A stretch of DNA of 35,881 nucleotides, taken from contig JAUMXF010000006.1 in assembly GCA_030529235.1 (NCBI GenBank), positions 9,816 to 45,696 of the forward strand. Reading direction: 5' to 3'. Source of the DNA: Pseudomonadota bacterium (GTDB lineage: Bacteria > Desulfobacterota > Desulfovibrionia > Desulfovibrionales > Desulfomicrobiaceae). Position numbers and translations under genes: made by a program. This document shows, piece by piece, positions 2,142-34,921 of this stretch (position 1 is its first letter; each line of letters starts with the position of its first letter). Under the pieces are notes generated by a model, which saw nothing but the letters and a program-made list of their open reading frames with translations, did not search any database and had not been told where the DNA came from.

Positions 2142-2948
2142 CTAGACGGCGTTTTCCTCGAACAGGGCCAGGGCCTGATCCACGGAGTAGTCCAGATGCA
2201 CCACGCTGTGCAGAGCCCGTACCAGCCGGGCCGGGTCCTCGGCCTGAAAGATGTTGCGCCCCATGGACAGCCCCGCGCCGCCGGCGGCGATGGAGTCGTA
2301 GGCCATCTGCAGGATTTCTCTGGGCGAGTCCATGCGCGGCCCGCCGGCAATGACCACGGGAACGCAGCAGCTTTCGGTCACTCTGGAGAAGGATTCGGGA
2401 TCGCCGGTGTAGGCCACCTTGATCACGTCGGCGCCCAGCTCCACGCCCAGACGGGCGCAGTGGGCCACGGTGGACGCGTCCCATTCGGACTTCACCTTGG
2501 GGCCGCGGGCATAGACCATGGCCAGGAGCGGAATGCCCCATTCGGCGCAGGACGCGGCCACCCGCCCCATGTCCCGGAGCATGTCCCGCTCCGATTCGTC
2601 ACCCAGGTTCAGATGCACGGACACGGCATCGGCGCCGAGCTTGATGCCTTCTTCCACCGTACCCACCAGAACCTTGGCGTTGGGGAAAGGGGATAGGCTG
2701 GTGCTGGCGGAAAGATGGATGATGAGTCCGATGTCCCGGCCGTGCCTGCGGTGTCCGCACCGGGCCAGTCCTTTGTGCATGAGCACGGCGTTGGCTCCGC
2801 CTTCGGCCACCTTGTCCACGGTGACCCGCGTGTCCACCAGCCCGTCGATGGGCCCCACCGTGGTGCCGTGATCCAGGGGCACGATGATGGTCCTCTCCGT
2901 GTTGCGGTTGAAAATCCGCTCCATCCGGATATTTTTTCCCATGTGCAT
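2142..2948 (-). CDS. 2-amino-3,7-dideoxy-D-threo-hept-6-ulosonate (ADH) synthase, AroA'/DhnA-type aldolase
   Basis: This 268-residue class I aldolase-fold enzyme is expected to condense a deoxy-ketohexose phosphate with L-aspartate semialdehyde, the first step of the alternative shikimate entry. With the start at 2948, the Schiff-base lysine is K177 (GADVIKVAY). The general acid/base candidates are D26 (PLDHG) and Y146 (MVYARG), matching the catalytic set known for the Methanocaldococcus enzyme. Three in-frame ATGs exist (2954, 2948, 2942). AAGGAGGG is one base from the first and about 7 from the second, so 2948 is preferred. It is the first gene of the aromatic operon and follows a terminator-bearing leader. 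A fructose-bisphosphate aldolase role is possible from homology, but the neighbours argue for aromatic synthesis. Confidence 0.9.
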
Positions 2949-2986
2949 GATCATCCCTCCTTGGTTTCGACCGGGCTTCCAGCGGC

Positions 2987-3023
2987 GAAGAAAAAGGGCC
3001 GCCGGCGGTTGCCTGCGGCCCTT
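2987..3023 (-). terminator. Intrinsic terminator in the leader of the aromatic operon (putative attenuator)
   Basis: On the minus strand the arms AAGGGCCGC (3023-3015) and GCGGCCCTT (3002-2994) form a perfect 9-bp, GC-rich stem with a 12-nt loop. A T-tract TTTTTCTTC (2995-2987) follows. The hairpin lies about 40 bp upstream of the first structural gene, not behind a gene. It follows the short Phe/Tyr-rich leader ORF, which is the layout of a transcription attenuator. The loop contains GGCAACCGCC (3013-3004), complementary to GGCGTTGCC (3063-3055) near the end of the leader ORF, with one bulged base. Confidence 0.75.
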
Positions 3024-3050
3024 CGGTGCTTTGCACGTGTCGGAAAAAGG

Positions 3051-3140
3051 TTACGGCAACGCCTCCGGACCACAGGAGCCGTGCTGGTAATAGCCGTAAG
3101 CAAACACGCGCGGATTCTGGGTGGAAACGAAGCTTTTCAT
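3051..3140 (-). CDS. Aromatic leader peptide (29 aa), putative attenuator peptide
   Basis: This short ORF starts ATG at 3140-3138, ends TAA at 3053-3051 and encodes 29 residues. It contains two Phe (F4, F13) and three Tyr (Y15, Y17, Y18), with the dense block VFAYGYY at 12-18. It directly precedes an intrinsic terminator and then the aromatic amino acid operon, as pheL- or trpL-type leader peptides do. Segment GGCTCC (3080-3075), just beyond the Tyr block, can pair imperfectly with GGAGGC (3066-3061). A ribosome stalled at Tyr18 would cover the first segment. No clear Shine-Dalgarno lies at good spacing (AGGGA is 10 bases upstream), so translation may be leaderless or weak. The function is inferred; the peptide itself is probably only a sensor. 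Confidence 0.65.
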   Translation of the reverse strand: MKSFVSTQNPRVFAYGYYQHGSCGPEALP

Positions 3141-3152
3141 AATGTATTCGTC

Positions 3153-3180
3153 CCTATGCGCCGCCGCGGGATGCTGTCAA
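3153..3180 (-). promoter_or_regulatory. Putative sigma-70 promoter of the aromatic operon
   Basis: On the minus strand a consensus -35 TTGACA (3180-3175) is followed, after 16 bp, by CATAGG (3158-3153) as a weak -10; TAGGGA with an 18-bp spacer is an alternative. The start of transcription would fall near 3145, only a few bases before the leader ATG at 3140. This fits an attenuator arrangement but leaves almost no 5' untranslated region for the leader ORF. Confidence 0.5.
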
Positions 3181-34834: not shown

Positions 34835-34921
34835 GCCGAAGTGGTGGAATTGGTAGACACGCTAGGTTCAGGGTCTAGTCGGGGTTCCCCGGTGGAGGTT
34901 CGAGTCCTCTCTTCGGCACCA
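34835..34921 (+). tRNA. tRNA-Leu (anticodon CAG)
   Basis: An 87-nt class II tRNA. The acceptor stem GCCGAAG pairs with CTTCGGC (34911-34917), followed by A and an encoded CCA (34919-34921). The anticodon stem CTAGG/TCTAG encloses loop TTCAGGG with anticodon CAG (reads CUG). A long variable arm follows (TCGGGGTTCCCCGG region), as in tRNA-Leu, and the T arm has GGTTCGAGTCC. The gene is followed by an intrinsic terminator. Leu is assigned from the CAG anticodon and the long variable arm. Confidence 0.97.

Follow-up and report, generated by a model that had tools for sequence, protein, structure and literature searches.

How is the synthesis of aromatic amino acids controlled in sulfate reducers that use the route through ADH synthase (2-amino-3,7-dideoxy-D-threo-hept-6-ulosonate synthase, ADHS) and 3-dehydroquinate synthase II (DHQS II)? 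The question is raised by a stretch of 35,881 nucleotides from a Desulfomicrobium genome, here called the window, whose minus strand carries a region of interest upstream of the ADH synthase gene. An original prediction, made from the sequence alone, read this region as a leader-peptide attenuator of classical order that senses tyrosine and phenylalanine. Our computational analysis supports that reading, replaces one of its central parts, and suggests that the sensor has been recoded during evolution as the genes behind it changed.

The operon and its leader

The ADH synthase gene (2142-2954, minus strand) was identified by TIGR01949 (387.6 bits, cut-off 299.45) and PF01791; it is preceded by the Shine-Dalgarno sequence AAGGAGGG (2955-2962, minus strand), and its conserved start may be the ATG at 2948 or 2942. 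It is followed on the same strand by the gene for DHQS II (1139-2350 when the reading frame is taken from its first start; PF01959, E 1.5e-97, match from residue 94), whose true start is probably at about codon 70-90, and by the gene for chorismate mutase-prephenate dehydratase (PheA, 35-1135; PF01817, PF00800, PF01842). Past the window edge, aroA and tyrA come after pheA and then no trp genes, as judged from the operon order read in L032. In most relatives the operon runs on into trpEGDCFBA, giving a 12-gene aro-trp operon. Named Desulfomicrobium contigs encode ADH synthases 83-85% identical to that of the window, which agrees with its assignment to this genus. ADH synthases 62-63% identical to it are found in the methylotrophic methanogens Methanomethylovorans and Methanococcoides (L122, L125, L126, L127), where no terminator of the leader type lies 5' of the gene; this similarity suggests a transfer between archaea and sulfate reducers. 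In one genus, the ADH synthase frame extends to ~638 aa if a single TAG is read through (G029:C1:3472954, G053:C21:13272, G037:C7:82745); ADHS and its downstream neighbour may share a frame there, separated by a stop codon. The window also holds a tRNA gene at 34835-34918 on the plus strand (Rfam RF00005).

Upstream of the ADH synthase gene, the TTGACA, the 29-codon reading frame with its VFAYGYY block, the pairing arms and the perfect 9-bp terminator with its T tract are all present where the original prediction placed them. The -35 element TTGACA (3175-3180, minus strand) is followed, after a 16-nt spacer, by a weak -10-like element, CATAGG (3153-3158, minus strand), recognized by sequence and spacing. 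TTGAC sits 35-40 nt 5' of the leader start codon in 104 out of 166 distinct leaders, so that the transcript probably starts within a few nucleotides of the AUG; in the window the predicted start is at about 3147-3144, leaving a 5' UTR of only a few nucleotides. The leader reading frame (3051-3140, minus strand), encoding MKSFVSTQNPRVFAYGYYQHGSCGPEALP and ending with the stop codon at 3053-3051, is thus nearly leaderless, and no clear Shine-Dalgarno sequence was seen 5' of it. Its codons include those of the operon's end products: the sensor block VFAYGYY (3087-3107, minus strand) contains Phe13, Tyr15, Tyr17 and Tyr18 and lacks a Trp codon, with other Desulfomicrobium having Trp (TGG) at a codon aligned to the block. 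Between the leader frame and the first gene stands an intrinsic terminator: the 5' arm GGGCCGCAGGC (3011-3021), the 3' arm GCCGGCGGCCC (2996-3006) and the T tract TTTTT (2991-2995), all on the minus strand. Its stem consists of nine perfect base pairs (AAGGGCCGC/GCGGCCCTT), a mismatch and three more pairs, directly before TTTTT.

This layout is kept ahead of the ADH synthase gene in almost all of the Desulfovibrionales tested: a short reading frame dense in aromatic codons (for example, MTNFSLNHSLYFFWYFYFSRACGLRGLL), then AGGGCCGCAGGC...GCCGGCGGCCCTTTTTT. The original prediction had named its absence from relatives as grounds for refutation, and on this check the prediction stands. The usual sensor block, before the 12-gene operon, combines Phe, Tyr and Trp, as in YFFWYFYF. 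A covariance model of the element matches in 272 out of 297 Desulfovibrionales genomes, and in 229 out of the 243 good ones. In a phylum-wide sample it matches 16 out of 297 genomes, a count that falls to 5 out of 286 once 11 members of the Desulfovibrionales are removed, which indicates that the model rarely fires by chance. The window itself scores 76.6 bits (E 2.9e-12), being one of the 56 sequences on which the model was trained. In some Desulfobacterales the element also lies 5' of ADHS, often with Phe-rich leaders. No Rfam family, including Trp_leader, Phe_leader and T-box, matches at its gathering score, and a permissive threshold gave only weak matches, all of them unrelated.

An antiterminator within the leader reading frame

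The original prediction proposed a helix of GGCTCC with GGAGGC and, as the antiterminator, a helix of GGCGTTGCC with GGCAACCGCC. Both pairings exist in the window, but neither is conserved among 56 relatives, where the median longest contiguous pairing is 5 and 4 bp, respectively; both were therefore rejected. The conserved antiterminator is a different one: in the window, CCTGTGGTCC (3067-3076, minus strand), which lies inside the leader reading frame, pairs with GGGCCGCAGG (3021-3012) of the terminator 5' arm, and in relatives GCCTGTGGTCY, directly 3' of the aromatic block, pairs with the entire 5' arm. Because the partner is the whole arm, the difficulty left by the original prediction, namely a partner located mainly in the terminator loop, is resolved.

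Over the 56 diverse relatives, 95.1% of the antiterminator cells are paired, a share that drops to 47.6% or less with a slid partner, and 98.5% of the terminator cells are paired. The pair formed by columns 60 and 140 is complementary in all 56 sequences (U-A in 42, C-G in 11, U-G in two and A-U in one). As its arm-side base faces a mismatch within the terminator, the covariation of these columns can be explained by the antiterminator only. The covariation score of the antiterminator is 0.164, compared with 0.130 after shuffling (0/500) and at most 0.095 when slid, with just one of the 11 pairs changing on both sides. Antiterminator and terminator thus exclude each other, and the former is supported by covariation at that one pair. 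Within the window alone, its complementarity is moderately unusual, being reached by 1.8% of codon shuffles, so that the case is carried by conservation. A protecting 1:2 helix, which is a feature of the Escherichia coli trp attenuator and does not define all attenuators, was not found conserved in the region 5' of the terminator (RNAalifold, -0.3 kcal/mol).

The spacing of the leader is informative as well. Counted from its first nucleotide, the last aromatic codon precedes the antiterminator by 9 nt in 133 out of 175 distinct leaders and by 12 nt in 23, and the stop codon falls 21-30 nt past the start of the antiterminator in most of them. The footprint of a ribosome is of a standard size, generally known; when it is assumed, a ribosome with Tyr18 in the A site has its leading edge at about 3076 and leaves the antiterminator just free, and a ribosome at the stop codon covers part of the antiterminator strand. 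The stall codons are thus placed so as to free the strand, and the finishing ribosome so as to cover it. When the window RNA was folded as it stands before the 3' arm is made, the probability of the antiterminator was 0.89 with a ribosome at Tyr18 and 0 with one at the stop codon. At equilibrium, with the full terminator available, the terminator prevails even when a ribosome is stalled; the switch must therefore be kinetic, the choice being made during transcription, as in known attenuators.

The computed elements, their conservation, covariation and geometry, together with the matching gene losses described below, lead us to regard it as very likely that this region controls the ADHS-DHQS II-pheA-aroA-tyrA operon by ribosome-mediated transcription attenuation, and that it would sense charged tRNA-Tyr and, to a lesser extent, charged tRNA-Phe. 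For its operation we infer the following course of initiation, translation, stalling and regulation. Transcription would begin a few nucleotides 5' of the leader AUG. Under a shortage of Tyr or Phe, stalling of the ribosome in VFAYGYY would leave the antiterminator strand (3076-3067) free. This strand would capture the terminator 5' arm (3021-3012) ahead of synthesis of the 3' arm, so that no terminator would form and the operon would be transcribed. When both are plentiful, the ribosome would reach the stop codon, partly cover the antiterminator strand and allow termination at 2995-2991.

It might be argued that translation of the leader is dispensable, and that a tRNA, a protein or a small molecule binds the RNA instead, in the manner of a T-box, of TRAP or of a riboswitch. 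The lack of a clear Shine-Dalgarno sequence agrees with this, as does the finding that in the isolated segment the antiterminator forms by default without a ribosome (mean 0.91). However, the conserved part is a reading frame whose aromatic codons keep a constant spacing, the identity of these codons tracks the downstream genes, and the Rfam search returned no such family, which makes binding without translation extremely improbable. Alternatively, the peptide could act in trans, besides or instead of attenuation in cis, as is reported for peTrpL of Sinorhizobium meliloti (PMC7298713). Action in trans by an attenuator peptide thus has a precedent, but in the present family the peptide varies once the aromatic block and the codons overlying the antiterminator are set aside, and we consider an action in trans very improbable.

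A third possibility is that the window leader is a decaying relic, which drifted after the loss of the trp genes and whose terminator mostly lowers expression without real sensing. The window block is sparser than those of relatives, with one Phe and three Tyr against seven to eight aromatic residues (four Phe, three Tyr, one Trp), so that its sensing may be weakened; moreover, the genome is reduced, at 2.3 Mb compared with 3.7-4.5 Mb in many congeners. Yet the leaders of the window genome and of its sister (MKSFVSTQNPRVFAYGYYQHG and MRSSMFTQNSYVFVYDYYCRN) differ at most codons while keeping the length of the reading frame and the Tyr-x-Tyr-Tyr spacing, and start, stop, antiterminator and terminator are kept in both too. 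This looks like maintained function, and decay appears improbable to us.

Trp codons and the loss of trp genes

In the window genome and in its sister G011, a complete genome of 2.78 Mb, the operon ends at tyrA, and neither trpA nor trpC was found in either. Both leaders are without Trp, the codon aligned to TGG being TAC. A stand-alone trpB is kept in both genomes (G000:C33:1209-2357 and G011:C1:2308230-2309378), perhaps for indole salvage.

Among the 119 genomes with a readable leader of the main operon, the Trp codon and trpA are both present in 94 and both absent in six; the codon is absent with trpA present in 13, and present with trpA missing in six (Fisher p 0.0038, from an uncorrected table that ignores kinship). 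The six double absences represent four lineages on the ADH synthase tree, on which the Trp codon needs seven changes, and trpC is missing in all six too. The seven changes amount to a natural experiment in the retuning of a genetic sensor after gene loss.

Two strict rules were considered and rejected. That operons without trp genes have no Trp codon is contradicted by L199-L206, L129 and L138, which keep Trp in the aro leader and have trp elsewhere. That loss of trpA entails loss of the Trp codon has apparent exceptions, most of which resemble assembly gaps: in G142 the genes trpE-trpB run to the end of the contig, G299 has trpC, and G303, G004, G019 and G021 are fragmented or incomplete assemblies.

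It is conceivable that chance or drift changed the Trp codon in operons lacking trp genes, with no adjustment to the pathway involved. In line with this, the codon is also missing in genomes that keep trpA (G147/G250, G301, G101 and the g29 group), and when fragmented and incomplete assemblies are left out, four out of four independent pairs agree with matched loss (p 0.125), a number of pairs that cannot reach significance alone. However, this agreement points away from drift, as does the absence of the codon from all six contiguous trpA-negative genomes. In addition, the separate trp operons with a readable 5' end have leaders of their own with Trp codons, mostly WWW, and these include the operons of G101 and of two members of the g29 group, which dropped Trp from the aro leader. 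A division of labour between leaders thus explains several of the exceptions, and we consider drift possible but rather unlikely. We therefore prefer matched loss: the comparisons argue that the Trp codon was dropped from the window leader as the trp genes were lost, with matched losses in four lineages, and we hold the explanation as a whole, attenuator included, with high confidence.

A possible recoded family of leaders

The division of labour extends to other genes. Most of the g29 group have two ADH synthases in tandem, and tandem ADH synthase genes were seen at L215, L221-L224, L227, L229 and L246. Where both attenuators were readable, Trp and Tyr codons (with some Cys) are in the upstream one, and Phe/Tyr only in the downstream one. 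Phe-only leaders precede second ADH synthases or sodium:solute symporters (PF00474, SSF); leaders with Tyr alone are found ahead of second ADH synthases too, and ahead of one of two tandem symporters. At L181, L185, L189, L191, L175, L207 and L196, SSF symporters have leaders of this family 160-265 nt 5' of them, of Phe-rich, Phe/Tyr or Tyr-rich content. L196 has two tandem symporters, one behind a Phe leader and one behind a Tyr leader; this arrangement suggests that the two are Phe and Tyr transporters. There are also two weak matches, namely a WWW leader directly 5' of a DctP-type TRAP transporter (L211:6539-6679, minus strand) and a Phe-rich stretch 5' of a phenylacetate-CoA ligase-like AMP-binding enzyme (L187:426-555, plus strand).

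We think it somewhat probable that all these leaders belong to one family, ancestral to the Desulfovibrionales, whose copies were each recoded to match the amino acid served by the gene downstream. The joint operon would then have Phe, Tyr and Trp codons, SSF transporters and isozymes of the first enzyme Phe or Tyr codons, and split-off trp operons and possibly the TRAP transporter Trp codons, with codons being dropped along with a lost branch. If this is true, the end products of each operon can be read from the codons of its leader, and the leaders could be used to predict transporter substrates and auxotrophies. In sulfate reducers with the ADHS/DHQS II route, which form a large group, the element appears to be a main regulator of the synthesis of aromatic amino acids.

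Relation to known attenuators

The original prediction named no earlier description of the same regulation for the DHQS II route. Its novelty is weaker than that, as Table 7 of PMC1173090 (2005) lists, from Merino's database, a putative attenuator before aroA'-aroB'-aroQ/pheA-aroF-tyrA-trp of Desulfovibrio vulgaris, a supraoperon that begins with the alternative-route genes. The operon and the gene order are those of the window family, and the listed attenuator is very probably the same element. It is listed there as a putative attenuator only; the paper gives no mechanism, spread or codon changes, and the word "leader" does not occur in its text. Beyond this table entry, we found no earlier account of the leader, its mechanism or its retuning in the openly accessible literature covered, and a survey of delta-proteobacterial regulation does not mention the element.

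Among known systems, the window element would work in the same way as those of the Rfam families Trp_leader (RF00513) and Phe_leader, but without a covariance-model match at the gathering score. In Sinorhizobium meliloti, trpL/rnTrpL acts by leader-peptide attenuation, with a transcript starting on or close to the AUG, and senses Trp only, before trpE(G). The mode of attenuation and the transcript start resemble what we propose for the window, whereas the restriction to Trp, the position before trpE(G) and the unrelated sequence set the two apart.

The classical ribosome-mediated attenuators are the enteric ones, trpL, pheL, ilvL and thrL. With these the window family shares a short reading frame with codons for the regulated amino acids, ribosome stalling as proposed here, mutually exclusive antiterminator and terminator, and a T tract. 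In contrast to them, a single block covers two or three of the aromatic amino acids, the antiterminator strand is embedded in the leader reading frame with no conserved protecting 1:2 helix, the predicted 5' UTR is very short, and there is no match in Rfam. By the features tested, all of them computational, the window element is a variant of the leader-peptide attenuators and belongs with them.
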